From assembly GCF_000013345.1 (NCBI RefSeq), contig NC_007777.1, positions 2,976,001 to 3,040,000 of the forward strand: a stretch of 64,000 nt of DNA, read 5' to 3'. Source of the DNA: Frankia casuarinae (GTDB lineage Bacteria; Actinomycetota; Actinomycetes; Frankiales; Frankiaceae). Numbering within the stretch: position 1 is the first letter of the stretch; each line of letters opens with the position of its first letter. The notes beneath the pieces were generated by a model. It was not told the origin of the DNA and did not search any database. It was given only the letters and a program-made list of their open reading frames with translations. A program made the position numbers and the translations under genes. Below, one piece after another: positions 3,527 through 56,244 of this stretch.

Positions 3527-5425
3527 GTAAGAGTTCGGTGATGGCGTGGGTGGGCGGGCCGAAGGCCCGGCCGGTGTTGCCGGTCGGGTGGTTTTCGGCT
3601 TGTGGGTGGGGTTAGGGCTCGGGCCCGTCGGGTGGGCCGTCCTGGGGTGGGTCGGTGCTGGGAGGGCTGCCGGTCTGGGTGGTGGTCTGCCAGGTGAGGA
3701 AGGGTTCGAGGGCGGGGCCGGCGGGTGCTTTCCCGCCGGCTGTGGCGCAGGCGTTCAGGTAGCCGGTCAGGAACGCGAGGGGTTCACGGCCGTTACGCTC
3801 CGCGGTGGCGACGATGGTCCAGACCCGGGCGGCGAGGTGCGCGGCCCACTCAGCGTGTGCGCCGTAGTAGTTCTTCCGCCCGACGACCGGGGTCCGTAGC
3901 GCTCTCTCGGCAGCATTGTTGTCAAGATCCAGGTCGGGGAAGTCCTGGTGGCGGGCCAGCCCGTCCCATTCCCGGTCCAGGGTCGCCAGGACCTTCTTCG
4001 CCGCCGGGTGCAGGCTGTGGATCGCCGCCTCCGCGCGCCGCGCCGTGTCGATCGCCCTCAGCGCGGCCTCGAACGCGCCGGCGGCCTCGCGGTAGCCGCC
4101 GGTTGTGGGCTGCTCGGCGGCGAGGGCGCGGTGAGCGAGGTAGAGCATCCCGATCCGGGCGACCCACTGGTCGGCCCAGTACCGCAGTTGGGGGTGGGCG
4201 TCCCCGGCCCGGATGAAGTACCGGCGGATGTGTGCCCAGCACCAGAGCGGGTCGACTCCGTCGACGCGGCCCAGGGACTGGTAGACGGTGTAGAAGTCCG
4301 ACGAGACGACGAGGCGACATCCGTCGGACAGCGCCCCGGCGGCCCGGTCGATCCCGAAGTGCTTCTCGACCGGGGCAGCCGAGCGGGTCGGGTCCATCCG
4401 GAACACCACCGTGTCGGCGGCGACGAACACCCACAGCCACCAGCGGGTCCCGTCCTTGCCCTCGACCCGCTCGAACACCCGCCACGTCGTCTCGTCCGCG
4501 TGGACATGACCGGCGGCGGCGTTACGCGCCACGATCTGCTCATCGAGCCCGCCGAGCAGTCCATGCACGTCCTTCAACGCCCCACACAGAGTGCCCTCGG
4601 CAACACCGAGCCCGGCGGCGGCCAGCGCCCGAGCGATCCGGTGCAACGGCAGGCCCAGGACGTACTTCTCGTAGAGAAGGCGGGCGAGGAACCCCGCGGT
4701 GAACCGGCCCTTGGGAATCGGTTTGGGTGGCACCGGCGCGGTCACTGTCCGCGGCCCCGGACATGTGCAGCACCGCCGATACCGCCGCCGCCGATGCACG
4801 ATCCGGGTGATCACGACCTGCCAGTCGACCTGTTCGCTGTCGTCGGTCCCCAACGGCGTGAACGCCACCCCACACCCGGGGCAGGCACGGTCGACCTCGG
4901 GCACATCATGGATCTCCTCGCGGGTCTGCAGATGCGAGTAGTCCCGCCGGCCATGCCCCCGGCTCCCCGGCCGCTGCCCGCGTTGACGCGCCGGCCGGCC
5001 GGCATCCCCACCGCCCGAATCCTGCCGATCTTCTGGTTTCTCATCCACAGCCGACGACGGGCCGGTCTTCTCCGAGGAACGACCGAACAGCATCCGGGAC
5101 AGCACCGCGACCTGCTCGCTCAACTCCTCGACCCGCAGCTGCAGCTGCCCGACACGGGCCTCGGCTTTCTCCGCACACTCCTCGGCCCGCTCGGCACGCC
5201 CACGCCAGTACGCCACCTCGGTGACATCATCGGTGACAGACAGAACAGACACACCACCCAGGACACATCACCAGCGTCCTCGGTATCAGGAACTACACCC
5301 GACGTATCACGAAGAGCCCACAACCCCCCACCAGCATCCCGCGGACACTCCGCCCGACTCCCGCCACAGCCACGACACCGCCACACGGCGGAACCAGCCC
5401 CTCCACGCCATCGCCGAATACTTAC
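3527..5425 (-). mobile_element. IS66-family insertion sequence, copy 1 (1899 bp)
   Basis: Terminal inverted repeats start GTAAG and match imperfectly (GTAAGAGTTCGG left, GTAAGTATTCGG right, inverted). It is flanked by the 8-bp direct repeat GTTACGGG at 3519-3526 and 5426-5433, the duplication length usual for IS66. It carries one long transposase gene and no separate TnpA/TnpB genes. A second copy at 19919-21817 has the same length; the only difference I saw is one silent base (G/A) in the transposase gene. Confidence 0.93.
3612..5252 (-). CDS. IS66-family transposase (TnpC type), copy 1
   Basis: DDE transposase of 546 aa. The order is an N-terminal leucine-rich coiled coil (residues 10-60), a zinc-binding region (CPGCG near residue 123, CCTCPG near 160), and the IS66 catalytic core with HADETTWRVF, WCWAHIRRYF and LDNNAAERALR motifs. 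The protein is identical to the copy at 20004-21644. It lies inside the disrupted MimR-like gene, opposite in orientation to it. Confidence 0.94.
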   Translation of the reverse strand: MSVLSVTDDVTEVAYWRGRAERAEECAEKAEARVGQLQLRVEELSEQVAVLSRMLFGRSSEKTGPSSAVDEKPEDRQDSGGGDAGRPARQRGQRPGSRGHGRRDYSHLQTREEIHDVPEVDRACPGCGVAFTPLGTDDSEQVDWQVVITRIVHRRRRYRRCCTCPGPRTVTAPVPPKPIPKGRFTAGFLARLLYEKYVLGLPLHRIARALAAAGLGVAEGTLCGALKDVHGLLGGLDEQIVARNAAAGHVHADETTWRVFERVEGKDGTRWWLWVFVAADTVVFRMDPTRSAAPVEKHFGIDRAAGALSDGCRLVVSSDFYTVYQSLGRVDGVDPLWCWAHIRRYFIRAGDAHPQLRYWADQWVARIGMLYLAHRALAAEQPTTGGYREAAGAFEAALRAIDTARRAEAAIHSLHPAAKKVLATLDREWDGLARHQDFPDLDLDNNAAERALRTPVVGRKNYYGAHAEWAAHLAARVWTIVATAERNGREPLAFLTGYLNACATAGGKAPAGPALEPFLTWQTTTQTGSPPSTDPPQDGPPDGPEP

Positions 5426-11094: not shown

Positions 11095-11670
11095 TCAGCC
11101 CGCCTGTGCCTTGGCGGCGGCCTTCATCGCCTTCTTGTACTCCCGGACCTGGTCACGGGTGGCAACGTCAGTGATGTCCGCGATGGAGCGGAACGTGCCC
11201 TCGTCCCCGAACGGCGCGGAGGCCTCCCGCCATCCCGGTGGGGTCACGCCAAGCTGTTTACCCAGCAGCGCCACAAAAATCTTGGCCTTCTGCTGACCGA
11301 ACCCCGGCAGCGCCGCCACCCGCCTCAGCAGTTCCTTACCGTCGGCCGCGGTCGTCCACACGCGGGCCGCGTCGCCGTCGTAGGTGTCCACGATGAGCTG
11401 ACACATGGCCTGTACCCGCTTGGCCATCGAGCCAGGGAACCGGTGCAGCGCCGGCACCTGCGAGAAGATCGCGCCCAGGGCGTCAGGGTCGTACTTCGCC
11501 AACTCCTCCGCATCCAGCGGCTGGCCGAGGCGTCGGGTCAGCTCATGGGGCGCGGCAAAGGCACGCTCAAGAGGAATTTGTTGATCCAGCACCATCCCGA
11601 TCAGCAACGCCAACGGATCGCTCGTCAGCAACTCGTCCGCCTCGGCGATCTGGCTCAGATGCAATCCCAC
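11095..11670 (-). CDS. HhH-GPD family DNA repair protein (intact copy)
   Basis: A DNA-glycosylase-like protein of 191 aa. It has the helix-hairpin-helix motif LPGFGQQKAK near residue 125 and the N-terminal signature LHLSQIAEADELL followed by LALLIGMVLDQQIP. I chose the GTG at 11668-11670, whose product VGLHLS matches all partial copies elsewhere in the window; a longer frame upstream has no family match. An NYN remnant lies upstream on the same strand. Its first about 30 codons recur at 14.6, 38.4, 41.7, 42.9, 46.1, 53.2 and, weakly, 56.1 kb. The break always falls at the VLDQQ codons, which marks this gene as an integration target. Catalytic role is inferred from the fold only. Confidence 0.85.
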   Translation of the reverse strand: MGLHLSQIAEADELLTSDPLALLIGMVLDQQIPLERAFAAPHELTRRLGQPLDAEELAKYDPDALGAIFSQVPALHRFPGSMAKRVQAMCQLIVDTYDGDAARVWTTAADGKELLRRVAALPGFGQQKAKIFVALLGKQLGVTPPGWREASAPFGDEGTFRSIADITDVATRDQVREYKKAMKAAAKAQAG

Positions 11671-11716
11671 GCCAACACCGTAGCCGACCGCATCGCATCC
11701 GCCGCCCGGTCGTTGA

Positions 11717-11961
11717 TCAGGTTGTGTAGTCGGTGTAGTCCCGACAGGCGGCGTAGTCGTCGGCATCCAGGTAGTGGCACCAGGGTGACTGTGAATCGGG
11801 GAAGCGAAGTCGACTGGTGCCCTTCCAACTCGCAACCTCGACGTGGCGACCAAGATCCCTCACGGTCCATGTCGGCCCGAGGTGCCCGAGGGCAAGAACG
11901 CGGTGCAAGCGGAGAGATGGACGTTCTGGTAGTCCAGGAAGACAGCGACTCGTGGGGTCAT
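11717..11961 (-). pseudogene. NYN-domain (PIN-like RNase) protein remnant
   Basis: The ATG at 11961 begins a typical NYN start (VAVFLDYQNVHLSA). The C-terminal part (VEVASWKGTSRLRF, then YLDADDYAACRDYTDYT) lies in another frame only a few dozen codons later. The central catalytic part is deleted and the frame is broken. A longer relic of the same gene is at 51215-51770. Confidence 0.7.
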
Positions 11962-11977
11962 GACGTAGCCGACCTCG

Positions 11978-12011
11978 AAAAAGGCCCCGCCAGTCCCGGA
12001 GGACGGCGGGG
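11978..12011 (-). terminator. Rho-independent terminator (minus strand), copy 1
   Basis: CCCCGCC (11985-11991) pairs with GGCGGGG (12005-12011) and a run of T follows on the minus strand. The same terminator recurs at 43255-43290, a sign of copied DNA. Confidence 0.65.
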
Positions 12012-12354
12012 AGTAAGTGGCTCTCTGGGCCGTCAAACGCCGGCACGGTCGCCCGCTGCCGACCTTCGCTCCAGCAGCCGCCAACCGGATCGTGACGCTA
12101 CGCAGCCAGGCCGGCGCGGACCGTCTCGTTCCACTGAACCCGTCGAGCGCGGGCCACTTACCCAGGCACCGGCCCCGCCGAAATCGACGATCACCGTCGT
12201 GTGGTTCACCGCCGCGCGTCCGACGTCGTCCGCTCGTCTCATTCGATGAACCGCGGCCGAGCCAGAGACACCCCGGCACCATCCACCTCGGCGACCCCGT
12301 CCCCTCGGGCGGTCCCCGCAGCTGGGTAACCGGCGCGATGCGCCAGGCTCCCGC
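12012..12354. other. Gap without a supported gene
   Basis: Several open frames cross this stretch but none has a family match or a good ribosome site. It is probably debris between the NYN and MarR remnants. Confidence 0.35.
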
Positions 12355-12790
12355 TCAGGGCTGGGCGAGGCGGGTGACGAAGTCGGCCACGATCGCCAGC
12401 TCGGCGTCGTCGTAGCGGCCGAGCGACTCCATCAGGCCGGCTCCCTTGGAACCGTAGAACGCGCCCAAGTCCGCGGCGATCCGCTCCCGGCGCGGGACAG
12501 GATGGCCTTCCTCCGGTTCTCGGCGGAGCGCTCCCGGCGGACGTGACCGACGCGCTCGAGGCGGTCGAGCGCTCCGGTGACAGTGCCGGTCCGCAGGCCG
12601 CTCAGATCGGCCAGCCGCCCTGGTGTCAGCGGTCCGCGCATCTCGCGCAGTGTCAGAACGGCGCGTCGCTCGTGCCGAGTTCGATCTCCTTCGCCCCCTC
12701 GTGGCTGTAGAGGACCGCTCCTGCGATCAACCGGACGACCGCGGCGAGGACGTCCGTATGTCACGATCAAGGGGGGTGCGTCGTCAGATC
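12355..12790 (-). pseudogene. MarR-family regulator, frameshifted
   Basis: Three consecutive pieces in different frames rebuild a MarR protein: TDVLAAVVRLIAGAVLYS, the winged helix (LADLSGLRTGTVTGALDRLE), and the C-terminus (IAADLGAFYGSKGAGLMES) ending at the stop at 12355. At least two frameshifts separate them. It diverges from the epimerase/ECF41 operon. Confidence 0.72.
12759..12785 (+). promoter_or_regulatory. ECF41-type promoter (TGTCACG-N16-CGTC)
   Basis: TGTCACG at 12759-12765 and CGTC at 12782-12785 match the known ECF41 consensus closely. The predicted transcription start falls at or next to the ATG at 12794, suggesting a leaderless, autoregulated message for the epimerase and sigma factor genes. 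Confidence 0.7.
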
Positions 12791-12793
12791 GGC

Positions 12794-13669
12794 ATGAGTA
12801 GGATTGTGATCACCGGATCCACTGGCGTCATCGGGCGGCGCGCCATCCGGGAGCTGCACGCCACCGGCCACCACGTGAGGGGCGTAACCCGGTCCGCGCC
12901 CGGCCGCGAGCGGCTGGCCAGCCTTGGGGTCGATGCCGTCGACGCCGACGTCTTCGACGAGGCTTCGCTGAGCCGGGCCTTCGACGGGGCGGAGGTCGTC
13001 ATCAACCTGTTGACCCACATCCCGAGCGCCGATCGTATGGCCGACCCGTCAGCCTGGGCCGAGAACGACCGACTGCGCACGAAGGCGTCGGCGGCGATCG
13101 CACGGGCGGCCCAGGCCGCCCGTGCGCGCCGGCTCGTCCAGGAGTCGATCGCGTTCGTCTATGCCGACGGCGGCGACGCGTGGCTCGACGAGGACGCACC
13201 GCTCGCGGGGGGCGGCGTGACAACGTCCGCGCTGACCGCCGAGGATCACGCGCGCGAGATGTTCGACGGCGACACCGTCGTGCTGCGCTTCGGGCTGTTC
13301 CTCGGACCGGACAGCGGCTCCACGCTGGCCACTGTGGAAGCCGCACGGCGGGGAACTTCGATCGCGGCCGGACCACCCGGCGCCTACCGGCCGACGCTCT
13401 GGCTGGAGGACGCGGCATCGGCCGTCGCCACTGCACTGAGCGTCCCCGCCGGGACCTACAACGTCGCTGACGCCGACCCACCTACAAACGCCGAGATCGA
13501 TGCCGCGTTGGCCGCCGCCGTCGGGGTCACGGCACTGCGGCCGAGGACGCCAGGGGACGGGCCGATGAGCCGCTCCCAGCGGGTGTCGAGCCGACGGCTG
13601 CGCGAGGCGGGCGGCTGGGCGCCGCGCCTGCGCGCGGGTACGGAGATCTGGGGCCGGATCACCACATGA
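12794..13669 (+). CDS. NAD-dependent epimerase/dehydratase-family oxidoreductase
   Basis: Rossmann-fold protein of 291 aa with an N-terminal nucleotide site (GSTGVIG, residues 7-13) and an atypical SDR fold; the usual YxxxK catalytic pair is not obvious. I chose the ATG at 12794 because the Rossmann strand begins immediately and the ECF41 promoter lies just upstream. The stop overlaps the start of the sigma factor gene by 4 bp, so the two are co-translated. Epimerase-like oxidoreductases are one of the three gene types typically paired with ECF41 sigma factors. Confidence 0.85.
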   Translation: MSRIVITGSTGVIGRRAIRELHATGHHVRGVTRSAPGRERLASLGVDAVDADVFDEASLSRAFDGAEVVINLLTHIPSADRMADPSAWAENDRLRTKASAAIARAAQAARARRLVQESIAFVYADGGDAWLDEDAPLAGGGVTTSALTAEDHAREMFDGDTVVLRFGLFLGPDSGSTLATVEAARRGTSIAAGPPGAYRPTLWLEDAASAVATALSVPAGTYNVADADPPTNAEIDAALAAAVGVTALRPRTPGDGPMSRSQRVSSRRLREAGGWAPRLRAGTEIWGRITT

Positions 13670-14505
13670 CCATTCTGGAGCGCTTCACGCAGGCACGCCC
13701 TCGGCTGCTACGGCTCGCATACAGCGAGCTCGGTGACCTCGGCGAGGCCGAAGAAGTGGTCCAGGATGCCTGGCTGCGGCTCGCGCGCGCGGACCACGCG
13801 GCAATCGAGAACCTGGATGGCTGGCTGACCACGGTCGTCGCTAGGCTCGCCCTTGATCGCCTCCGGTCCGCTCGGGCGCGCCGCGAGATCTACGTCGGCC
13901 CGTGGCTCCCAGAGCCGCTCGGGTCGGGTGACCCGGCAGACCGTGTCACGCTCGACGAATCCGTCAGCTACGCCTTGCTAGCGGTGCTCGAGCAGCTCTC
14001 ACCGGCGGAACGCACGGCGTTCGTGCTGCACGACGTGTTCGACATACCGTTCGGCGAGGTCGCCGAGGTGGTCGGCCGCACGCCCGAGGCAGTGCGGCAG
14101 CTCGCGGCGCGTGCCCGCCGCCACGTCAGGCGCGAGCACTCGCGTTTCGTGGCCTCGGGTGAGGAGCACGATCGCGCCGTACGGGCGTTCGCGCTGGCAG
14201 TGGCCGAGGGCGACCTCGGCGGTCTCCTCGCCGTTCTCGACCCGGATGTCGTCTGGAGGTCGGATGGCGGCGGTCACGCGGTAGCGGCACGCAGACCGCT
14301 GCACGGCGACATTCGGGTCGCGCGAGCATGGGTGGCGCTTAGCCGCAGGCTCGACCACCCGATCGAGACCACGCTCAACGGGCAACTCGGGCTGGTGATC
14401 CCGAGTCACGACGGCCACCGCGCAGCGCTTTCGTTCGCGGTGAGTGACAATCGGATCACGCGCATCGACGTGGTCCGCAATCCGGAGAAGCTGCGACGAA
14501 TCTGA
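13666..14505 (+). CDS. ECF41-group sigma factor with SnoaL-like C-terminal domain
   Basis: A 279-aa sigma factor: sigma-2 at residues 5-72, sigma-4 at about 105-155, and a SnoaL-like extension from 165. Two ECF41 hallmarks are present: the DGGG motif (200-203) and a C-terminal NPEKL (273-277). In this group the C-terminal domain, not a separate anti-sigma factor, tunes activity. It overlaps the epimerase gene by 4 bp. The promoter at 12759-12785 suggests it transcribes its own operon. Confidence 0.92.
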   Translation: MTILERFTQARPRLLRLAYSELGDLGEAEEVVQDAWLRLARADHAAIENLDGWLTTVVARLALDRLRSARARREIYVGPWLPEPLGSGDPADRVTLDESVSYALLAVLEQLSPAERTAFVLHDVFDIPFGEVAEVVGRTPEAVRQLAARARRHVRREHSRFVASGEEHDRAVRAFALAVAEGDLGGLLAVLDPDVVWRSDGGGHAVAARRPLHGDIRVARAWVALSRRLDHPIETTLNGQLGLVIPSHDGHRAALSFAVSDNRITRIDVVRNPEKLRRI

Positions 14506-14592
14506 AAAGCATGGGGACGAGGCGCTGAGTCGCACCGAGCGCGACCACTCTCCCGCGCTCCACCCGAGAGATGTTCCAACGACGTTCCTTGT

Positions 14593-14694
14593 TTATCCGG
14601 CTTGCTGGTCTAGGACCATGCCCACCAGGAGCGCCAGGGGGTCCTCGGTGATGAAGGCGTCCGCCTCTGGATCGCCGGACAGGTGCAGGCCCAT
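14593..14694 (-). other. HhH-GPD 5'-end mimic A (att-like site beside recombinase 1)
   Basis: An ATG frame of 33 codons (MGLHLSGDPEADAF, then LALLVGMVLDQQAG and stop) copies the start of the HhH-GPD protein and breaks at the VLDQQ codons. It lies 61 bp behind the recombinase stop, after a hairpin. On the distal side it joins a GTTCCTTGTTTATCCGGCTTG arm shared with sites B, F and G. I read it as an integrase attachment site that carries a replacement 5' end of the target. Confidence 0.75.
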
Positions 14695-14719
14695 GCCCGT
14701 CAGGGTATCCACGACGAAT

Positions 14720-14749
14720 ACCCCGCCGGACTGGTGCGTCCGGCGGGGT
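14720..14749 (-). terminator. Recombinase 1 terminator hairpin
   Basis: An 11-bp perfect stem (ACCCCGCCGGA with its complement) and 8-nt loop lies between the recombinase stop and the ATG of mimic A. An identical copy is at 53243-53272 and a related one at 38438-38463. Confidence 0.7.
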
Positions 14750-16234
14750 GGGGCGTCAGGGACGCCAGACCACTTCCACCCGTTCGGGGTCGAAGCGGTT
14801 CGTTGGGCCGTCAGCCGCCTTCAGTACGACGGCCTCGATGACGGTACTAATGATCTCCCAGCGCTGCTCCAGCTCCAAAGAGGGCCAGCCCTCGGCCAGG
14901 TTCGTGACCTTGGGGCCGGTGTGGGCGCGTAGCCACTCGGCCTGCTCCGCCCTCAGGTGCAGGATGGATTGCTCCTGCTCGCGCACACGGGGGAAGACGT
15001 ACGGGCCGGGCAGCTCGTCCCGGTCATAGGCACCCATGAGTTTCGCGATCTTGGCCTCCGCCTTGGCCAACTCGCCCGCCCTTGGCCACCTGCCCACCTC
15101 GGCCTCGACGTCGCGGCCTGCCAGGTAGGCCAGGACCAGCTCGGAGACAAGGTCATCAACATGGCGGCCTGTGACGCCGACCTTGCCGCACCCGCCCGCG
15201 GTGACGGCCTTGCAGGCGTAGTGGTGCTTGCCCCACCGCCGGTCGTAGCCGCCCATCAGGTGGCGGCCGCGGAACCCGCAGCAGATGATCCCGGACAGCA
15301 GATACTTCCGTCCGCCGATGTGGACGTGCTTGGAAACCCGGCTGGGGTCGCGGAGCTTCGCCACCACCGCCTCCCAGACATCCAGGTCCAGGATGGGCTG
15401 CTGCTGGCCCTTGACCGGCTGGCCGTCCGCGTCCACCACGTAGCGCTTCTCCAGCGGGACGGAGGTCGGGCCGTACACCCGGTAGCCGACGATGCGCGGG
15501 GACAGGTAGATGTTGCGCAGGACGGGTTTTTGCCACTTCTTGCCCATGGCGCTGGCGATGCCAAGATCGTTCCACTGGCGACAGATGGTGTGGAGGCCGA
15601 CGCCGGCCAAGATCTGATCCGCCCCCGCGACCAGGAGCGCCGCCGCCGGTTCGTCCTTGGTTTCCTTGTCGGCCAGCCAGCCGAAGGCACGGTTGCCCCC
15701 GACGGTAATGCCGGCCTGGGCCATGGCGAGGTGCTTGCGCCGAACCCGCTTGGAGGTGTCCAGGGACTGCCGCGCCTTGAGGGTGACGACGATCCGGGCC
15801 ACGTCCCGCCCGTTGTCGGTGAGCAGGTCCAGGCTGCCGGAGATGTCAATGATGGGCCGCCCGTACTGGGTGACGACCTCGATGGCGTCTTCCAGGTCGC
15901 GCTGGTCCCGGGTGAGGCGGTCCACGTCAGCCACGACGATGCCGTCCAGGCGCTCCCCGTTGCGGGCGACGCCCCGCCGCAGGTCCCGCAGCACTTCCTC
16001 GTACTTCGGCCGGACGACGCGGTAAATGATCGTCCCATCCGGTTGCCGGATGCGGCGCTTCTTCCAGGCGGAGGTGTCAGGCTCGTCATAGGGGGCGTCC
16101 AGGAGGACGCCGCCGCGGCTCTCCACGAACGTCCGGCAGTCTTTTAGTTGGGTCTGCCGGTTGTTGATGTCCAGGCCGGACAGGACGGCGCGTTTCCTCG
16201 CCTCCGGCATAGTCTCCAGGTCCTTGGGGTCAAT

Positions 16235-17275
16235 GAGCCTTTCCCGGTAACGATTCGTCACGTGACGTGATCGCAATGGTGTGTTGGTGTGTTGGGTGTC
16301 AGGCGGTTCTGCGGTGCTCGGTGTGGAGGATGACGAGGGCGGCTTTCACGACAAGTCCGATCTTCCAGGGGTCGATCGTGATGTTGTGGAGGAGTCGGAA
16401 GGTGCCTTTGAGCAGGGCGTTCGCGCGTTCACCGACGGCGCGTAGCGCGTTGTGGATCCGGTTGTGCGCTTTCTGTTCGTCGGTGAGGGTGCCGCCCTTG
16501 GGCTTCTTGTACGCGGTCGCGAGCGGCCCGGCCGGGTTGCCCAGCCCTTCGTAGCCGAGGTCGAACAGCACCTCGTGCAGGTCGGCGGTCCACTCGGCGA
16601 GAACCGGCAGCGCCCCGGAGGCTTTCAGGGCGGTCGAGTCGTGCTCGCGGCCGGGCCGCACGTCGGAGACCCACAGTGGCCAGCCGTCGTCCGGGGCGGA
16701 GAGCACCTGGATGTTGCCACCGTGGTTGGAGATCGTGCCGGACCACCACAGGTCCACGCCTTCGGTCGGGCCGGGCATGCGTAGCCGGTCGGTCTCGATG
16801 ACCGTGCCGTCAACGATGAGATGCTCGTAGCCGGCGACCCTGGCCCGCATCAGCGCTTCACGCAGGTCCGGGGCCTGCCAGGCGAGCACGGCGACTCCCT
16901 CGTGCAGGTAGCGGTAGCCCACCGACCGGGACACCCCATGATCGGAGAAGAGCCGCCTGGCCCTGGTGCCGTCACAGAACCAGCGCAGGACCATCACGGC
17001 CTGTTCCAACGCGGACAGCGTCCGGGTGCCCTTGCGGGTACCACGACGTTGACGCTCCGCCACGAGAAGACCCGCCAGACGGAAAACGGTGTGATCGCCG
17101 AACGGCAGCTCGGCGGTGTATGTGAAACTCATCGAGGCGTGGGGTTCCTTCGGAGTTGCTCTTTGGTCGGAACAACTTCCTACCGGAGCCCCGCGCCTTC
17201 ATCGTCTCCACCCCCAGGGACGCTCACACCCAGCGACGCTCACGGAGCGTCACCAAACGTTGCAGGGAAAGGCTC
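16235..17275 (-). mobile_element. IS5-family (ISL2 group) insertion sequence, copy 1 (1041 bp)
   Basis: Ends are GAGCCTTTCCC and its inverse, flanked by AAT on both sides (16232-16234, 17276-17278). The A-N-T duplication is typical of the ISL2 group. A same-length copy with the same transposase is at 32460-33500, flanked by ACT. Confidence 0.9.
16299..17132 (-). CDS. IS5-family (ISL2 group) transposase, copy 1
   Basis: A 277-aa DDE transposase with an N-terminal HTH_Tnp_4-like region (DHGVSRSVGYRYLHEGV), DDE signatures around LIVDGTVIETDRL, and a C-terminal ERANALLKGTFR glutamate region. The product is identical to that at 32603-33436. It sits inside recombinase 1 in the same orientation. 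Confidence 0.93.
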   Translation of the reverse strand: MSFTYTAELPFGDHTVFRLAGLLVAERQRRGTRKGTRTLSALEQAVMVLRWFCDGTRARRLFSDHGVSRSVGYRYLHEGVAVLAWQAPDLREALMRARVAGYEHLIVDGTVIETDRLRMPGPTEGVDLWWSGTISNHGGNIQVLSAPDDGWPLWVSDVRPGREHDSTALKASGALPVLAEWTADLHEVLFDLGYEGLGNPAGPLATAYKKPKGGTLTDEQKAHNRIHNALRAVGERANALLKGTFRLLHNITIDPWKIGLVVKAALVILHTEHRRTA

Positions 17276-17559
17276 AATCTCAAAGGACAACCGAAGCAGG
17301 GGCGCAAAGTTCAGGCCGGTGAGGTCGCCGAAATGCGCCCGCGTGAGCACACTGAGCCTTTTCAATCTCTGTTTGTCTGATTCTTTCGGCCGTTGAGGAT
17401 CACCAATTGACGAATTGAACGGGCACTGGTTCCGGTCGTTCCGTCATCTGGCGGCGGCGATAGTTGTTCGGGCGGTGGCCGGAGGGGTGCCGTAAATAGA
17501 GAAGTCCCCGGTAGATCACAGGGTGTCTACCCCACTGTGCCCTTGACCGAGGACTTCCG

Positions 17560-19918: not shown

Positions 19919-21817
19919 GTAAGAGTTCGGTGATGGCGTGGGTGGGCGGGCCGAAGGCCCGGCCGGTGTTGCCGGTCGGGTGGTTTTCGGCTTGTGGGTG
20001 GGGTTAGGGCTCGGGCCCGTCGGGTGGGCCGTCCTGGGGTGGGTCGGTGCTGGGAGGGCTGCCGGTCTGGGTGGTGGTCTGCCAGGTGAGGAAGGGTTCG
20101 AGGGCGGGGCCGGCGGGTGCTTTCCCGCCGGCTGTGGCGCAGGCGTTCAGGTAGCCGGTCAGGAACGCGAGGGGTTCACGGCCGTTACGCTCCGCGGTGG
20201 CGACGATGGTCCAGACCCGGGCGGCGAGGTGCGCGGCCCACTCAGCGTGTGCGCCGTAGTAGTTCTTCCGCCCGACGACCGGGGTCCGTAGCGCTCTCTC
20301 GGCAGCATTGTTGTCAAGATCCAGGTCGGGGAAGTCCTGGTGGCGGGCCAGCCCGTCCCATTCCCGGTCCAGGGTCGCCAGGACCTTCTTCGCCGCCGGG
20401 TGCAGGCTGTGGATCGCCGCCTCCGCGCGCCGCGCCGTGTCGATCGCCCTCAGCGCGGCCTCGAACGCGCCGGCGGCCTCGCGGTAGCCGCCGGTTGTGG
20501 GCTGCTCGGCGGCGAGGGCGCGGTGAGCGAGGTAGAGCATCCCGATCCGGGCGACCCACTGGTCGGCCCAGTACCGCAGTTGGGGGTGGGCGTCCCCGGC
20601 CCGGATGAAGTACCGGCGGATGTGTGCCCAGCACCAGAGCGGGTCGACTCCGTCGACGCGGCCCAGGGACTGGTAGACGGTGTAGAAGTCCGACGAGACG
20701 ACGAGGCGACATCCGTCGGACAGCGCCCCGGCGGCCCGGTCGATCCCGAAGTGCTTCTCGACCGGGGCAGCCGAGCGGGTCGGGTCCATCCGGAACACCA
20801 CCGTGTCGGCGGCGACGAACACCCACAGCCACCAGCGGGTCCCGTCCTTGCCCTCGACCCGCTCGAACACCCGCCACGTCGTCTCGTCCGCGTGGACATG
20901 ACCGGCGGCGGCGTTACGCGCCACGATCTGCTCATCGAGCCCGCCGAGCAGTCCATGCACGTCCTTCAACGCCCCACACAGAGTGCCCTCGGCAACACCG
21001 AGCCCGGCGGCGGCCAGCGCCCGAGCGATCCGGTGCAACGGCAGGCCCAGGACATACTTCTCGTAGAGAAGGCGGGCGAGGAACCCCGCGGTGAACCGGC
21101 CCTTGGGAATCGGTTTGGGTGGCACCGGCGCGGTCACTGTCCGCGGCCCCGGACATGTGCAGCACCGCCGATACCGCCGCCGCCGATGCACGATCCGGGT
21201 GATCACGACCTGCCAGTCGACCTGTTCGCTGTCGTCGGTCCCCAACGGCGTGAACGCCACCCCACACCCGGGGCAGGCACGGTCGACCTCGGGCACATCA
21301 TGGATCTCCTCGCGGGTCTGCAGATGCGAGTAGTCCCGCCGGCCATGCCCCCGGCTCCCCGGCCGCTGCCCGCGTTGACGCGCCGGCCGGCCGGCATCCC
21401 CACCGCCCGAATCCTGCCGATCTTCTGGTTTCTCATCCACAGCCGACGACGGGCCGGTCTTCTCCGAGGAACGACCGAACAGCATCCGGGACAGCACCGC
21501 GACCTGCTCGCTCAACTCCTCGACCCGCAGCTGCAGCTGCCCGACACGGGCCTCGGCTTTCTCCGCACACTCCTCGGCCCGCTCGGCACGCCCACGCCAG
21601 TACGCCACCTCGGTGACATCATCGGTGACAGACAGAACAGACACACCACCCAGGACACATCACCAGCGTCCTCGGTATCAGGAACTACACCCGACGTATC
21701 ACGAAGAGCCCACAACCCCCCACCAGCATCCCGCGGACACTCCGCCCGACTCCCGCCACAGCCACGACACCGCCACACGGCGGAACCAGCCCCTCCACGC
21801 CATCGCCGAATACTTAC
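19919..21817 (-). mobile_element. IS66-family insertion sequence, copy 2 (1899 bp)
   Basis: Same ends and length as copy 1. Flanked by CATTGTTC at 19911-19918 and 21818-21825. The only base difference I saw is silent (G to A near 21054, in a Tyr codon). Confidence 0.93.
20004..21644 (-). CDS. IS66-family transposase, copy 2
   Basis: A 546-aa protein identical to the transposase at 3612-5252, including the zinc-binding and catalytic motifs described there. The near identity of the two copies and their intact 8-bp duplications indicate recent movement. Confidence 0.94.
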   Translation of the reverse strand: MSVLSVTDDVTEVAYWRGRAERAEECAEKAEARVGQLQLRVEELSEQVAVLSRMLFGRSSEKTGPSSAVDEKPEDRQDSGGGDAGRPARQRGQRPGSRGHGRRDYSHLQTREEIHDVPEVDRACPGCGVAFTPLGTDDSEQVDWQVVITRIVHRRRRYRRCCTCPGPRTVTAPVPPKPIPKGRFTAGFLARLLYEKYVLGLPLHRIARALAAAGLGVAEGTLCGALKDVHGLLGGLDEQIVARNAAAGHVHADETTWRVFERVEGKDGTRWWLWVFVAADTVVFRMDPTRSAAPVEKHFGIDRAAGALSDGCRLVVSSDFYTVYQSLGRVDGVDPLWCWAHIRRYFIRAGDAHPQLRYWADQWVARIGMLYLAHRALAAEQPTTGGYREAAGAFEAALRAIDTARRAEAAIHSLHPAAKKVLATLDREWDGLARHQDFPDLDLDNNAAERALRTPVVGRKNYYGAHAEWAAHLAARVWTIVATAERNGREPLAFLTGYLNACATAGGKAPAGPALEPFLTWQTTTQTGSPPSTDPPQDGPPDGPEP

Positions 21818-31572: not shown

Positions 31573-32459
31573 TCTCGTTCGGTCAGCCAGCGGCCGGGGC
31601 AGCCAGACGAGCGCGGGAACTGATGAAGGCGCGCAGCTGGTCCAGGTCCGGAAGGGGTTCGTGGTGGGGACGCTCGCAGCGAAGGCTTCCGCTGGCCGCT
31701 GCCAGCTCCAGGGTTTCCCCCATCGGCCAGCCGAGACGCAGACCGTAGAGAAGGCCGCCGGAAAAGGCCGCGCCGGCGCAGTGGGTGTGCCGTACCACGA
31801 TCTCGAAGGCGGGAACGGATACCCGGCTGGTGTCGCTGAGGGCGACCGCGCCGAAGGCTCCGGCCGTGACCACCACCCAGGAGGCCCGGGTCTGGCTCCG
31901 CAGGGAGGCCGCCGTCGCCAGGGCCTCCCCGTGCGCGGCGTCGTCCACGTTCGTCTGGATCACCAGCAGTTCCGGCCAATCCCGGAGCGCGGAAGCCACC
32001 TCCGGGCTGAGGCTGGAGCCGCCGAGGTTGAGCAGCAGCGGAACCCCTGCCCGGCGGGCGGCCTCGATGGCGCGGAGGCTTGCTGGTTCGATGAGCTGGT
32101 AGCAGTCCACATAGGCGAAGGATGCCGAGGCCAGCGGTGTGAGGTCCACGGCCATCAGCCCATCCAGTACCCCGGGCAGGTACGGAAACCAGGTTCGGGT
32201 GCCGTCATCGTCGGCCACGATCACAATGTGCGACGTTGACTGATCCGGCACCGGCCGGGCCGTGGAGGCCACCCGGTGCCGCTCTAACCAGGCCTGGATT
32301 TGGACCCCGCCCGGATCATCGCCGAAGTCGTTTGAGAGCACGAGCGCCGGGACCTCGAGGGCGGCCAGGACGGCGGCGGCCATAGGGCCATCCGCCGCGA
32401 TGGACGGCTCCACCGTCCGGACCGCCGCGCCCTGGTTCGCCGAGGGGAAATGACCCACT

Positions 32460-33500
32460 GAGCCTTTCCCTGCAACGTTTGGTGACGCTCCGTGAGCGTC
32501 GCTGGGTGTGAGCGTCCCTGGGGGTGGAGACGATGAAGGCGCGGGGCTCCGGTAGGAAGTTGTTCCGACCAAAGAGCAACTCCGAAGGAACCCCACGCCT
32601 CGATGAGTTTCACATACACCGCCGAGCTGCCGTTCGGCGATCACACCGTTTTCCGTCTGGCGGGTCTTCTCGTGGCGGAGCGTCAACGTCGTGGTACCCG
32701 CAAGGGCACCCGGACGCTGTCCGCGTTGGAACAGGCCGTGATGGTCCTGCGCTGGTTCTGTGACGGCACCAGGGCCAGGCGGCTCTTCTCCGATCATGGG
32801 GTGTCCCGGTCGGTGGGCTACCGCTACCTGCACGAGGGAGTCGCCGTGCTCGCCTGGCAGGCCCCGGACCTGCGTGAAGCGCTGATGCGGGCCAGGGTCG
32901 CCGGCTACGAGCATCTCATCGTTGACGGCACGGTCATCGAGACCGACCGGCTACGCATGCCCGGCCCGACCGAAGGCGTGGACCTGTGGTGGTCCGGCAC
33001 GATCTCCAACCACGGTGGCAACATCCAGGTGCTCTCCGCCCCGGACGACGGCTGGCCACTGTGGGTCTCCGACGTGCGGCCCGGCCGCGAGCACGACTCG
33101 ACCGCCCTGAAAGCCTCCGGGGCGCTGCCGGTTCTCGCCGAGTGGACCGCCGACCTGCACGAGGTGCTGTTCGACCTCGGCTACGAAGGGCTGGGCAACC
33201 CGGCCGGGCCGCTCGCGACCGCGTACAAGAAGCCCAAGGGCGGCACCCTCACCGACGAACAGAAAGCGCACAACCGGATCCACAACGCGCTACGCGCCGT
33301 CGGTGAACGCGCGAACGCCCTGCTCAAAGGCACCTTCCGACTCCTCCACAACATCACGATCGACCCCTGGAAGATCGGACTTGTCGTGAAAGCCGCCCTC
33401 GTCATCCTCCACACCGAGCACCGCAGAACCGCCTGACACCCAACACACCAACACACCATTGCGATCACGTCACGTGACGAATCGTTACCGGGAAAGGCTC
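32460..33500 (+). mobile_element. IS5-family (ISL2 group) insertion sequence, copy 2 (1041 bp)
   Basis: Inverted copy of the element at 16235-17275, flanked by ACT (32457-32459 and 33501-33503). Same ends and length; same transposase. Confidence 0.9.
32603..33436 (+). CDS. IS5-family (ISL2 group) transposase, copy 2
   Basis: 277 aa, identical to the product at 16299-17132. It lies antisense to the PfkB gene that it interrupts. Confidence 0.93.
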   Translation: MSFTYTAELPFGDHTVFRLAGLLVAERQRRGTRKGTRTLSALEQAVMVLRWFCDGTRARRLFSDHGVSRSVGYRYLHEGVAVLAWQAPDLREALMRARVAGYEHLIVDGTVIETDRLRMPGPTEGVDLWWSGTISNHGGNIQVLSAPDDGWPLWVSDVRPGREHDSTALKASGALPVLAEWTADLHEVLFDLGYEGLGNPAGPLATAYKKPKGGTLTDEQKAHNRIHNALRAVGERANALLKGTFRLLHNITIDPWKIGLVVKAALVILHTEHRRTA

Positions 33501-33570
33501 ACTGTCCAGAGAGAGGCGGCGGCCAGGTAGCTGACGCAGACCACCGGCCCCGGGTGTGGCCCGGCCACGG

Positions 33571-36118: not shown

Positions 36119-37219
36119 ATGAGCACCGACGAACACGACGAGGAAGATCCCGCACTTGAGATTGCGTCCAAAGATATGGATCGCCTCAGCGAAATCGTGT
36201 TGCGGGTGCCGCCCGGCGTCTACACGGGAATGAATGAGCAGCTTTCTCGAATGATGCGAGATGCCCTGGCGGTCAATAACTCCTCAATATCGAAAATTGC
36301 CGCACAGCTGGCTGGATCAACCGTGCCATATGAAGCAATCATCAAAGAACTTGGAGCCACCAGCTCCTTGGCAAAGATTGCCTCCATGGATCTGGCTGGC
36401 GCACGGCTTGCGGGAGTCCTGACCCAGAGCCTGAGTTCTTCGTATCTCTCGGAGACGATTGCCGCTGCCAATAAGCTGAGCGCCAGAAATCTACTGGGTC
36501 CGATGTTCACTGACCTTGAGAAGTCGCTCGTTAAGGCCGCCGAGCGTTCGCTGATTGCGGTTCCACCGCCTAATTTCTTGGCCTTCGCCAATCTCGCAGC
36601 CGACGGCTGGCGCCAAACCCTTGATGCGGCCATCGTCTCGCCGCCACCATCTCCAGGCCGACTTTCCTCTCTGGGCGCGACCACACTTCATGTAGTCGAG
36701 ATCGGAAATGATCTCGGTGAGGCCGCCGAAGAAGCCAACCTTGAAGATGAACGGTGGCGGGAAGGTCGTGAACAGCTTACTGATCATCTCTCCTCCTGGC
36801 TAGGGCAAGCATGCCCTAAGGCGGTTCCGAAGCTGAGGGGAGCTTGGCACGCGCTGACCTCGAATGGGCCAGATGCGGCCTCTCAGGCGGCGAACTCGGG
36901 TGTGGAGGCACTTGACTGGACTTTGCGCACCATTGCGCCTGATGATGAGGTCCTCGCATGGCGGGAAAATGTTGGTCAATACGCAAAGGAAATTGACCCT
37001 AAGAACGGCAAACCGCATCGAGCGCTACGTGTTCGTTACGCAGTACGAGGCTTTGGCATGAAAAGCGACGGCGTCACGGTAATCATAATGATGATGACCC
37101 GGTGCCTTGATGAGTTGCAGGGCGTGAAACATGGTGTAGATGAGACGAAAACCATCGCGGCTGCACGTCGCGCTCTCCTTGCGCTCGAGAACACGTTGAC
37201 AGCTTTGATGCCATATTAG
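36119..37219 (+). CDS. Uncharacterised helical protein, first gene of a candidate defence pair
   Basis: 366 aa. The N-terminal 150 residues are helical and Ser-rich. The C-terminal half (LRGAWHALTSNGPDAASQAA, then VEALDWTLRTIAPDDEV) resembles helical regions of pPIWI-associated or abortive-infection proteins, but I cannot assign a family with confidence. ATG 36119 follows AAGGAG. It lies 6 bp before the HEPN-like gene, in the lowest-GC part of the window, which suggests recent transfer. Confidence 0.6.
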   Translation: MSTDEHDEEDPALEIASKDMDRLSEIVLRVPPGVYTGMNEQLSRMMRDALAVNNSSISKIAAQLAGSTVPYEAIIKELGATSSLAKIASMDLAGARLAGVLTQSLSSSYLSETIAAANKLSARNLLGPMFTDLEKSLVKAAERSLIAVPPPNFLAFANLAADGWRQTLDAAIVSPPPSPGRLSSLGATTLHVVEIGNDLGEAAEEANLEDERWREGREQLTDHLSSWLGQACPKAVPKLRGAWHALTSNGPDAASQAANSGVEALDWTLRTIAPDDEVLAWRENVGQYAKEIDPKNGKPHRALRVRYAVRGFGMKSDGVTVIIMMMTRCLDELQGVKHGVDETKTIAAARRALLALENTLTALMPY

Positions 37220-37225
37220 TACCCC

Positions 37226-38242: not shown

Positions 38243-38331
38243 CGCGGGACGGTCATCAACCCCAGCCGAATGCCACAGAGGGTATCCAACCCGTGACGGA
38301 ACGTCCGAATTCGTTCCTTACATGTCCGATT

Positions 38332-38423
38332 TGCTGGTCAAGAACCATACCCACCAGGAGCGCCAAGGCGTCGGACGTGATGAGGGCGTCGGCCTCGGGG
38401 TCGCCGGACAGGTGGAGGGCCAT
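38332..38423 (-). other. HhH-GPD 5'-end mimic B (att-like site beside recombinase 2)
   Basis: From the ATG at 38421-38423 it reads MALHLSGDPEADALI, then LALLVGMVLDQQIG, and leaves homology at the same point as mimic A. The distal arm GTTCCTTACATGTCCGATTTG matches A, F and G. Confidence 0.75.
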
Positions 38424-38470: not shown

Positions 38471-39733
38471 TCAGGGACGCCAGATCACGGTGATGCGATC
38501 CGGGTCAAAACGGTTCTTCGGCCCATCGGCCTTGGACAGCACCACGGCCTCGATAACGGTGGCGATGATGTCACGGCGCTGCTCCACCTCCAGCCGAGGC
38601 CAGGACGAGGCCACGTTGGTCAGCTGGGGGCCGGAGTGGGCGCGCAGCCAGTCGTTGCGCTCCCCCCGGAGCTTCGCCACGTCCCCCTCCAGCTCCTCCA
38701 CCATCTGGAGGGCGCGGGTGCCGCCGCGCTTCGTCTCCCGCCAGGCGGCCATGATCTCGGCGATCTCCGCCTCGGCCGCCTTGGGCCACGGGCCGCTTTC
38801 GGCTTCCACGTCCCGGTTTGCCAGATAGGCCAGCACCAAGTTCGTGACCAGTTCGTCAACGTGGTGGCCGGTCACGGCGACGCTGCCGCAGCCACCAGCG
38901 GTGACGGGACGGCAGGAGTAGTGATGCTTCTTCCACCCCTTGTCCCAGCCGCCGGTGAGCCGCGCGCCGCAGTAGGCGCAGCGGATGATTCCGGACAGCA
39001 GATACTTCCGGCCGCCTATGTGGATGTTCTGGTTGCCGGTCCGAGCGGGGTCGCGGAGCTTCGCCACCACCTTCTCCCAGACCTCGACGTCCAGGATGTG
39101 ACCTTGAAGGCCCATGACGGGCTGGCCGTCTACGGTGCAGGCGTAGCGCTGCTCCAAGGGAACCGTGGTCGGGCCGTGTACCCGGTAGCCCGCGAGGCGG
39201 GGAGACAGATACATGTTCTTCATCACCTGGCGCTGCCACTGGTGGCCCCGGGTCGTGAGAATGCCCAGCTCATTCCAGCGGCGGCAGAGCGTGTGCGTGC
39301 CGACCCCGGCAAGGATTTCGTCAGCACCGACGACGATCATGTCGGCCTCGGCCTTGCGGATGGTGCGCTTGTCCGGCTCCCAGCCGAAGGGCCGGTAGCC
39401 GCCCACGGGGACACCCGCCTTGGCGAGCTCGCGGTGGGCCGTCCGCACCCGCCGGGAGGTGTCGGCGGACTGCTGGTTCTTCAGGGCCACGACGATCCGG
39501 GCCACGGAGCGCCCGTTGTCCGTGAGGAGGTCAAGGGTGCCGCTGATGTCAATGACGGGCCGCCCGTACTGGACCACCACGTCAATGGCGTCTTCCAGGT
39601 GGCGCGGGTCGCGGGTGAGCCGGTCCACGTCGGAGACGATGAGGCCGTCAAGGGGCTTGCCGGTTTTGGTGGCTCCCCGCTTCAAGTCCTCCAGGGCGCC
39701 CTCGTACACCGGCCGCACCACCCGGTACACCAC
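38471..39733 (-). pseudogene. Large serine recombinase 2, N-terminally truncated
   Basis: 420 residues are in frame; the N-terminus with the catalytic serine is missing, replaced by an IS5-type transposase remnant at about 39735. It keeps VSDVDRLTRDPRHLED, the recombinase domain and an intact zinc ribbon (CAYCG, then YSC and GGCG). It is clearly homologous to but different from recombinases 1 and 3. It ends next to mimic B. Confidence 0.85.
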
Positions 39734-39738
39734 GGAAG

Positions 39739-41526: not shown

Positions 41527-41629
41527 CCTGATAGCTCGCGTCCCCCGCCACGCAACGGATCAACCATGACGATGAGTATCTATGCGGGCACGTATAGTGA
41601 GATTCCACTCCATCTTTCCGATACCGGCT

Positions 41630-41717
41630 GGCCCAGAACCATAGCGATGAGGAGCGCCAGCGGATCCTTGGTCAGCAGCTCGTCGGCCTCGCCGATCTGG
41701 CTCAGGTGCAGTCCCAC
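41630..41717 (-). other. HhH-GPD 5'-end fragment C (host type)
   Basis: Reads VGLHLSQIGEADELLTKD then PLALLIAMVLGQ from the GTG at 41717. It follows the intact gene more closely than the recombinase-linked mimics do, and homology extends into the upstream CCGTAGCCGACCG. The distal arm is CCATCTTTCCGATACCGGCTG, shared with D, E and H. Confidence 0.72.
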
Positions 41718-42425: not shown

Positions 42426-42828
42426 TCGAGGCTGCCGTGAGCAGCTCTGAGCGACTGCGGCCGTAGTCCTGTTCGCTCCGGCAGCCGCAAGCCGGATCAT
42501 AACCCCGGGTTCTCACTCTAACCGGCCTGCTCGCCCCGGTTCTCCCCCATCACGGGCCGGAACATCTGTCGCCTTGAACAGCGCGGCGAGGCGGTCTGGC
42601 GTCTACCGGTTCGGGATCGCATCGACCAGGTTGAAGACGATGCTCGGGTCGCGACCACCGAACAACAGCGAGATCACGACTGCCGCCATCGCCTCGAGGT
42701 GGTGAGCCTGCCGAAGATCGCCGACCGGGACAGGCTCGGTGCCCACGGGCACCGCCGTGACCAGTCAGAGCTCGGTTGCTCGGGTGACACGAGTCATTCC
42801 GCCGGGCTCGTTCTTTCCGGTGCCCGCT
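42426..42828. other. Gap with a possible minus-strand remnant
   Basis: On the minus strand about 53 codons ending at a TAG at 42603-42605 read LEAMAAVVISLLFGGRDPS then IVFNLVDAIPNR. This has coding character but no start or family. Nothing else is supported. Confidence 0.3.
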
Positions 42829-42916
42829 GCTCCAGCACCATCCCGATCAACAGCGCCAACGGATCGTTCGTCAGCAGCTCGTCCGCCTCGTCGATCTGGC
42901 TCAGGTGAAGTCCCAC
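42829..42916 (-). other. HhH-GPD 5'-end fragment D (host type)
   Basis: Reads VGLHLSQIDEADELLTND then PLALLIGMVLEQ from the GTG at 42916. The upstream base pattern of the intact gene (ACACCGTAGCC) is also kept. The distal arm is CTCGTTCTTTCCGGTGCCCG. Confidence 0.75.
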
Positions 42917-46037: not shown

Positions 46038-46125
46038 TGTCCAGCACCATCCCGATCAGCAGCGCCAACGGCTCGTTCGTCAGCAACTCGTCAGCTTCGT
46101 CGATCTGGCTCAGGTGCAGTCCCAC
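46038..46125 (-). other. HhH-GPD 5'-end fragment E (host type)
   Basis: Reads VGLHLSQIDEADELLTNE then PLALLIGMVLDS from the GTG at 46125. The distal arm CCATCTTTCCGATACCCGCTG is almost the same as at C. Confidence 0.75.
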
Positions 46126-53018: not shown

Positions 53019-53123
53019 CGTAGTGATCAGGCCACGGGCCGCGATCAGCCAACGACCGGCGCCCGGGCTGAAGCAGGCGGCCGGCTCTGGGCTCCGCCTA
53101 CCGGTCGTTCCTTGTTTGTCCGA

Positions 53124-53217
53124 TTTGCCGATCAAGGACCATCCCCACCAGGAGCGCCAACGCATCGGACGTGATGAGGGCGTCCGCCTCTGGATCGCCG
53201 GACAGGTGCAGGCCCAT
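53124..53217 (-). other. HhH-GPD 5'-end mimic F (att-like site beside recombinase 3)
   Basis: Reads MGLHLSGDPEADALI, then LALLVGMVLDRQIGQ from the ATG at 53217. The distal arm GTTCCTTGTTTGTCCGATTTG matches A, B and G. It is identical to A from 53181 on but differs nearer the core. Confidence 0.75.
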
Positions 53218-53278: not shown

Positions 53279-54320
53279 TCAGGGACGCCAGACCACTTCC
53301 ACCCGTTCGGGGTCGAAGCGGTTCGTTGGGCCGTCAGCCGCCTTCAGTACGACGGCCTCGATGACGGTACTAATGATCTCCCAGCGCTGCTCCAGCTCCA
53401 AAGAGGGCCAGCCCTCGGCCAGGTTCGTGACCTTGGGGCCGGTGTGGGCGCGTAGCCACTCGGCCTGCTCCGCCCTCAGGTGCAGGATGGATTGCTCCTG
53501 CTCGCGCACACGGGGGAAGACGTACGGGCCGGGCAGCTCGTCCCGGTCATAGGCACCCATGAGTTTCGCGATCTTGGCCTCCGCCTTGGCCAACTCGCCC
53601 GCCCTTGGCCACCTGCCCACCTCGGCCTCGACGTCGCGGCCTGCCAGGTAGGCCAGGACCAGCTCGGAGACAAGGTCATCAACATGGCGGCCTGTGACGC
53701 CGACCTTGCCGCACCCGCCCGCGGTGACGGCCTTGCAGGCGTAGTGGTGCTTGCCCCACCGCCGGTCGTAGCCGCCCATCAGGTGGCGGCCGCGGAACCC
53801 GCAGCAGATGATCCCGGACAGCAGATACTTCCGTCCGCCGATGTGGACGTGCTTGGAAACCCGGCTGGGGTCGCGGAGCTTCGCCACCACCGCCTCCCAG
53901 ACATCCAGGTCCAGGATGGGCTGCTGCTGGCCCTTGACCGGCTGGCCGTCCGCGTCCACCACGTAGCGCTTCTCCAGCGGGACGGAGGTCGGGCCGTACA
54001 CCCGGTAGCCGACGATGCGCGGGGACAGGTAGATGTTGCGCAGGACGGGTTTTTGCCACTTCTTGCCCATGGCGCTGGCGATGCCAAGATCGTTCCACTG
54101 GCGACAGATGGTGTGGAGGCCGACGCCGGCCAAGATCTGATCCGCCCCCGCGACCAGGAGCGCCGCCGCCGGTTCGTCCTTGGTTTCCTTGTCGGCCAGC
54201 CAGCCGAAGGCACGGTTGCCCCCGACGGTAATGCCGGCCTGGGCCATGGCGAGGTGCTTGCGCCGAACCCGCTTGGAGGTGTCCAGGGACTGCCGCGCCT
54301 TGAGGGTGACGACGATCCGG
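53279..54320 (-). pseudogene. Large serine recombinase 3, truncated copy of recombinase 1
   Basis: Its visible coding part matches the last about 347 residues of recombinase 1, with the same C-to-R change in the zinc ribbon. The match ends abruptly at 54320, inside the catalytic domain (RIVVTLKARQ), where an IS66-type transposase remnant begins. No catalytic serine, so inactive. An apparent longer frame to 54625 is chimeric. Confidence 0.88.
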
Positions 54321-55936: not shown

Positions 55937-56111
55937 TGTTACTTATTGTAACAGCGAATTTTACCCCCCCATAGGAGTTATTGCAAACATAAGAGAAACG
56001 CCGACGCGGGCGAAGGGCTGAGCCAGAGGCGTTATTATTCCATTGGACCGGTCGCGCCCTTCCGCGACAATGAGTGACCACAGAGATGCGAGCCGTCTAA
56101 ATTCATAACTT

Positions 56112-56244
56112 AGTTTGTCCGATTTGCCGATCCAGGACTTTGCCAACCAGGAACGCCAACAGGCCATACCGCCACTCTGCGTGATCAAGTGGGGCGGAAC
56201 GTACCATCCCACTCGTTCTTTCCGAGATCGGCTGGTCGGCGAGT
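56112..56244 (-). other. Att-like remnants G and H
   Basis: G (56112-56163) has arm TTTGTCCGATTTGCCGATCC and reads LLAFLVGKVLDRQIGQT, a short HhH-GPD-like piece. H (about 56205-56234) has the other arm type, CCACTCGTTCTTTCCGAGATCGG cut short here at the core, with no HhH fragment. Both arm types therefore meet at the edge of the CHAT region. Confidence 0.5.

Follow-up and report, generated by a model that had tools for sequence, protein, structure and literature searches.

How does a single intact DNA-repair gene come to be accompanied by a series of displaced beginnings of the same gene? The question is raised by the 64 kb window analysed here (the whole stretch of DNA under study), which comes from a genome of 5,433,628 bases in a single contig. 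The window holds one intact TIGR03252 HhH-GPD gene and, upstream of it, three recombinase-linked 5' ends of a type that we call GDPEADA, three other truncated 5' ends and a seventh fragment, and all seven pieces lie in the orientation of the intact gene, on the minus strand (Table 1). An earlier note on this DNA had described the first three as mimics of the gene, each with the order recombinase stop, hairpin, ATG, HhH-GPD 5' end and a break at VLDQQ. We found that order at three loci (14756-14593, 38471-38322 and 53279-53116, all minus strand), where 31 residues match the N-terminus of the gene, the tblastn E-values of the mimics against the window are 5e-19, 6e-15 and 3e-15, and the preceding hairpins have fold energies of -24 to -29 kcal/mol (z about -5.8). 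The mimics also have, as had been claimed, a start of their own, MGLHLSGDPEADAFITEDPLALLVGMVLDQQ and close variants, as against VGLHLSQIAEADELL (the LHLSQIxEADELL type) in the resident gene. The other four pieces, namely QIxEADELL-type 5' ends at 41717, 42916 and 46125 and the fragment at 56159, were absent from that note. With 83% identity to an Acidimicrobiaceae MAG versus 71% to the Frankia type, the GDPEADA peptide is closer to other actinobacterial N-termini than to that of Frankia, which suggests that this type was acquired outside the Frankia group.

Table 1. Features of the HhH-GPD locus in the 64 kb window, in order of position
Feature	Position	Strand	Basis or remark
Resident TIGR03252 HhH-GPD gene, intact	11098..11670	-	TIGR03252 score 328 vs cut-off 136
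attB-type junction in resident gene (5' half / GA / 3' half)	GA at 11586-11585	-	
-10-like TACGGT, leaderless promoter candidate	11677..11682	-	12 nt upstream of GTG start; sequence
Gene-proximal cassette E0	11587..14608	.	boundaries inferred from site types
Mimic 1, GDPEADA type, then P' arm type I	14596..14694	-	GA core 14610-14609
Likely recombinase 1 terminator: hairpin after the stop codon, before mimic 1	14720..14749	-	fold energy
Recombinase 1, large serine recombinase, C-terminal portion	14756..16230	-	PF00239 partial, PF07508
IS with DDE_Tnp_4 transposase, splits recombinase 1 gene	16231..17276	-	second copy 32459-33507
Severed recombinase 1 N-terminus (RAHFGDLTGLNFAPLLRLSFE)	17277..17341	-	by-eye alignment to intact relative in L133
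Mimic 2, GDPEADA type, P' arm type I	38325..38423	-	
Recombinase 2, ~61% identical, truncated at N-terminal side	38471..39738	-	
Displaced 5' end, QIxEADELL type, P' arm type II	41622..41717	-	
Displaced 5' end, QIxEADELL type, P' arm type III	42818..42916	-	
Displaced 5' end, QIxEADELL type, P' arm type II	46039..46125	-	
Mimic 3, GDPEADA type, P' arm type I	53119..53217	-	
Recombinase 3, N-terminal part missing	53279..54320	-	nearly identical to recombinase 1 across common part
Decayed 5' end fragment, P' arm type I, right limit of recombinase 3 element	56105..56160	-	GA at 56132

The break falls precisely at GA in the Asp codon of VLDQQ, beyond which the window mimics switch to a common arm, (A/G)TCGGACAAACAAGGAACG. 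Wherever arms of the opposite hand occur (P arms), they are the reverse complements of the P' arms. Counted outward from GA, the motif GGARCG occupies positions 16-21 in the gene's own B' half versus 21-26 in the type I P and P' halves, with mean matches (of 6) of 5.8, 5.6 and 5.5, respectively; it also begins at 21 in type II P' arms (5.0 of 6) and is less clear in type III. In a structure-based model of serine integrases (PMC3783163), the zinc-domain motif of attB is 5 bp closer to the centre than that of attP. With their common GA dinucleotide, dyad attP and 5-bp shift, the junctions look like attB and attP sites of large serine recombinases and are treated here as predicted sites; the match is weaker in the type III arms and in the left B half. 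Cassette E0, next to the gene, has a type I P' arm at its right end and a cargo of a NAD-binding protein and an ECF sigma factor, and its 5' end is now the start of the resident gene. An IS66-family transposase stretch present in two copies, 99.9% alike (window 3527-5425 and 19919-21817), flanks the gene-proximal part of the array.

The window is one instance of a family-wide pattern. Searching the gene across the genus returned several partial copies per genome in nearly every genome, and a sequence-only model built from 32 aligned 5' ends and run against the order (represented here by one family, 35 genomes) gave strong matches (E < 1e-20) in the great majority of genomes of four genera, the named relatives of the locus belonging to Frankia, Protofrankia, Parafrankia and Pseudofrankia. 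Displaced half-sites are present in 26 of 32 genomes of these genera and number more than 100 across the Frankiaceae; outside the family, in a class-wide genome sample, the gene is almost always single-copy where present. Nearly every truncated copy breaks at the same base, in the GA dinucleotide of the Asp codon of VLDQQ. Classed by the sequence to the left and right of GA in CTG-GA-YCAG, the junctions comprise 35 B-B' sites (gene-like), 72 B-P' sites (a displaced 5' half and a foreign arm), about 17 P-B' sites (a foreign arm and the 3' half of the gene) and a few P-P' dyads, and the P' arms are of three types, I (TCGGACAAACAAGGAACG), II (TCGGAAGGATGGAGTG) and III (TCGGAAAGAACGAGYG). On contigs with a complete gene the displaced 5' halves lie upstream in 55 cases and downstream in three, the orphan 3' halves lie downstream in 12 of 12, and neither B-P' nor P-B' sites occur on the opposite strand. 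The median spacing of upstream sites is 3.2 kb. Decay with distance is expected where the newest insertion adjoins the gene; for the half-sites, the trend with distance from the gene was weak and not significant (p 0.08). The array may predate the four genera, since a deeper-branching MAG, Frankiaceae bacterium BP_195 (L209), contains two matches to the Frankia 5' end.

What lies between the sites is diverse. The cargo includes luciferase-like monooxygenase, carboxylesterase, alcohol dehydrogenase, NAD-binding proteins, flavodoxin-fold reductase, regulators and an RHH antitoxin-like protein; the sequences upstream of truncated copies are unrelated between most copies, and the arrays also contain IS elements and degraded genes. 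Two recurrent neighbours of the junctions deserve separate mention. In three genomes a conserved ORF of 614-662 aa runs divergently from a mimic (L121:11216-13198, and upstream of both L037:17376 and L114:4267), with CGAAGGGAAATCGACC common to all three just ahead of the mimic start; the L121 copy has AlbA_2/Schlafen and HATPase_c_4 domains, and the ORF could be a cassette-linked regulator or defence gene. A ribbon-helix-helix protein ending in VEEIVRRVLRESA stands directly before the P arms of orphan 3' halves (L044:12202-12796, L040, L046 and L047), beside a small ORF that by eye resembles a toxin partner and has no Pfam match; an antitoxin or a directionality factor is possible.

The core proposal of the earlier note was that the mimic is a replacement 5' end which, on integration, fuses to the 3' part of the target and restores an open gene. 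This is well supported, because 5' ends that lie buried in an array in one genome head a complete gene in another and because the complete HhH-GPD gene is kept in 24 of the 26 array-bearing genomes. Among cassette ends with over 90% identity between genomes, that of the G005 array is 98.6% identical to that of G016, where it sits on a complete gene; for the array ends of G026 and G007 the counterparts are the genes of G003 (92.8%) and G031 (91.6%). In G005 and G010, moreover, one cassette (98%) precedes 3' parts that clearly differ, and in alignments of common cassette ends identity is lost at CTGGACCAGC. The same cassette thus occurs both displaced and joined in frame to a resident remainder, as in the SXT/prfC case. 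For the GDPEADA type itself, the fusion looked for was one to a full 3' part beside an intact recombinase. Outside the window, in Candidatus Frankia meridionalis (G024, L110:10627) a GDPEADA end does read in frame into IPLERAFAAPLEL, but onto a truncated stub, another att site cutting the 3' part after 17 codons, and the recombinase there is a degenerate relative of those in the window. Where the proposal falls short is in scope: it did not foresee that the resident 5' end, too, arrived late and in like manner, that the phenomenon is spread across the family or that 3' halves are displaced as well. Insertion may, as the note also held, be neutral for the host.

Our reasoning on the resident 5' end comes from the 29 complete genes, whose 5' distances are about half of their 3' distances (0.10 vs 0.21-0.25; at third positions, 0.23 vs 0.41), the two being mutually uncorrelated. 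The 3' distances correlate modestly with those of rpoB (Mantel r 0.30, p 0.0005), whereas the 5' distances do not follow rpoB at all (r -0.00, p 0.49), and we therefore read the resident LHLSQI start as itself cassette-borne, a late arrival. Against G013 and G015, relatives without arrays, the 5' end is usually more divergent than the 3' part. An ancestral origin of the resident 5' end was also considered and rejected on the comparison of 5' and 3' distances. All 82 of the 5' ends with a start codon in register are open; TANNNT is found 12-13 nt before the start in 74 of them (0 in a control stretch), with no conservation further upstream, and we read this as a candidate leaderless promoter travelling with each 5' end. 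Variation among the carried ends falls mostly at third codon positions (0.19 vs 0.07 and 0.05).

Judging from these sequence patterns, we think it likely that the TIGR03252 HhH-GPD gene of Frankiaceae is an attachment site for small cassettes moved by large serine recombinases. The main cassettes would be laid out as P' arm, cargo, promoter and first 28 codons of the gene, and in a circular cassette the junction would read gene 5' half, GA, P'. Such a circle (B-P') would recombine at GA with the gene (B-B') and be inserted upstream; its promoter and 5' end would be fused to the resident 3' part, restoring the gene and regenerating attB, and the old 5' end would be displaced to the far side, beside the new P' arm. 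Both sites have the gene's 5' half on their left, and recombination would therefore yield B-P' and B-B' once more, so that gene and attB would be regenerated and the reaction could be repeated, building up a one-directional array of displaced 5' ends. The circles could originate in cis, by an attP × attB reaction between an upstream P-P' site and the attB of the gene, which would release a circle that has the promoter and 5' half, a P-B' orphan staying behind; the site types predicted for this reaction, B-P' and P-B', are both observed. Mirror cassettes, which would carry a 3' half and leave orphan 3' halves downstream, probably exist. We further infer that restoration of the gene is the reason for carrying the 5' half, in that sparing the host would benefit the cassette; the carried length, the codon-position pattern, the promoter and the persistence of a complete gene in nearly all array genomes point this way.

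The main rival to this reading is homologous recombination through the 5' halves of about 90 bp, single-crossover circles being inserted and the recombinase sites being relics of older insertions. It would give the same product structure, and it fits with the recombinase being missing from most arrays and with two pairs, G010/G017 and G026/G003, that diverge inside the 5' half and not at GA. In these pairs the 5' coding part is more divergent than the flank, which indicates that homologous exchange inside the 5' half also occurs. It seems to us unlikely, however, for (i) three pairs stay identical up to the GA core and then switch abruptly; (ii) P and P' arms with dyad symmetry and the 5-bp shift are present at every junction, in three arm types and (iii) it leaves unexplained why orphan 3' halves, too, are joined at that GA. 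We are equally doubtful that the mimic serves the recombinase solely as a recognition half-site (B half), with gene restoration an unselected by-product. In favour of this, an attB half-site is part of the gene, VLDQQ thus being encoded by every B half, and arrays and gene are co-located. Yet a serine integrase half-site spans about 25 bp, whereas conservation extends over 84 bp of coding sequence and a -10 element, and neither the bias of this stretch toward third-position variation nor the fact that 24 of 26 array genomes still have a complete gene favours a mere by-product. That unrelated islands were repeatedly inserted beside a duplicated gene, the truncated copies being decayed duplicates, is highly improbable despite the IS elements and degraded genes in the arrays: the sidedness count disfavours it, as nearly all truncated copies have the same end base, orientation and side, the attP arm types are few and the upstream sequences are unrelated between most copies.

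For the attachment-site reading that we prefer, the enzyme is the weakest point, as a related recombinase is present in the arrays of only two genomes, G000 and G024. Recombinase 1 has the domains of a large serine recombinase (PF00239, partial, and PF07508 at 14756-16276), and its RLS motif lies on the N-terminal segment beyond the IS; this N-terminus is whole in the relative in L133. All three recombinases of the window are broken, the first by the IS and the other two by loss of their N-terminal parts. Only the GDPEADA-type elements of G000 and G024 encode an integrase of their own, and no serine recombinase (PF00239) was matched in the arrays of eight genomes. Since the other arrays are without a related recombinase, we assume one that acts in trans or has since been lost. 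Relatives of the recombinase outside Frankiaceae have no mimic behind them, and a scan of a genome contig collection with the recombinase gave no match. Phage and plasmid collections contain only distant relatives (at most about 32% identity among the best records listed), there is no sequence match in PDB at E 0.001, and viral contigs gave no match for the attP-like junction pattern or for the gene. A further difficulty concerns the pair of sites recombined: strict serine integrase rules favour attP × attB, contrary to which the main cassettes would need B-P' × B-B'. The anatomy, the site types, their sidedness, the common break point, the two states of a cassette in different species and the exchange of 5' ends are observed; the trans-acting serine recombinase, the circular intermediate and this exact site pair are proposed. 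Inside the recombinase 1 element there are also two adjacent ORFs (window 36119-38242), the first with a predicted pPIWI-associating nuclease domain, and the pair is possible defence cargo.

Taking the two kinds of half-site together, we lean somewhat toward a broader view in which the locus captures genes on both sides, much as an integron platform would, by means of serine-integrase half-sites, with the repair gene as permanent attB and recombinases supplied in trans, in four genera. If so, each cassette would bring either promoter and 5' half or a 3' half, gene and attB would be regenerated at each insertion and arrays could grow without limit. A mobile element could in this way reuse an internal position of a protein-coding gene repeatedly without destroying it, and Frankiaceae would have a cassette array outside the integron paradigm, with tens of kilobases of foreign genes accumulating beside the gene. 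It would also account for a gene in which the first 28 codons and the remainder differ in history, an odd signature by which phylogenies and annotation would be misled. Since the core dinucleotide GA and the types of arm are known, plasmids offer a direct test of the recombination.

There is precedent for parts of this scheme. ICEs of the SXT/R391 family integrate in the 5' part of prfC and supply a new promoter and 5' coding end. The likeness is in the insertion within the 5' part of a protein gene by an element that brings promoter and 5' end; the SXT/R391 elements, however, are large, conjugative and served by a tyrosine integrase, whereas in Frankiaceae we find serine-recombinase sites, cassettes of about 3 kb, most of which lack an integrase, and long arrays that extend to either side of the gene. 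SCC/ECC elements in rlmH (PMC6222049) share large serine recombinases, a housekeeping gene as attB and remnant att sites beside it. SCC elements use the 3' end of rlmH, span tens of kb and encode their own ccr genes (PMC6222049); the Frankiaceae cassettes, by contrast, carry a whole gene half with its promoter, mostly lack a recombinase and are not SCC elements, the target being TIGR03252 and the CcrB model scoring 18 bits against a cut-off of 900. Islands in tRNA genes (Islander, PMC4383910) likewise split their target, carry a restoring sequence and leave a displaced fragment, but mostly with tyrosine integrases and in tRNA genes, where the cassettes described here bring the promoter and N-terminus of a protein gene. 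Our literature search found no account of such an array, the closest being AICEs in Frankia (PMC3218068), SCC-like ECC elements and tRNA islands; gene-restoring integration (SXT, tRNA islands) and serine-recombinase cassettes (SCC) are already known, and it is their combination in array form that we did not find described. In its small, diverse cassettes, including one with an RHH antitoxin-like gene, arrayed by site-specific recombination at one locus, the system resembles integrons. Among the tyrosine integrase (PF00589) matches listed for eight genomes, down to weak ones, a single one lies near an array, directly 3' of the HhH-GPD gene (G016:C14:47122-47622), and none marks an IntI-type integrase within the arrays. 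Unlike integrons, these arrays have serine-integrase half-sites as their recombination sites, and their platform is a DNA-repair gene that would itself be rebuilt by each insertion.
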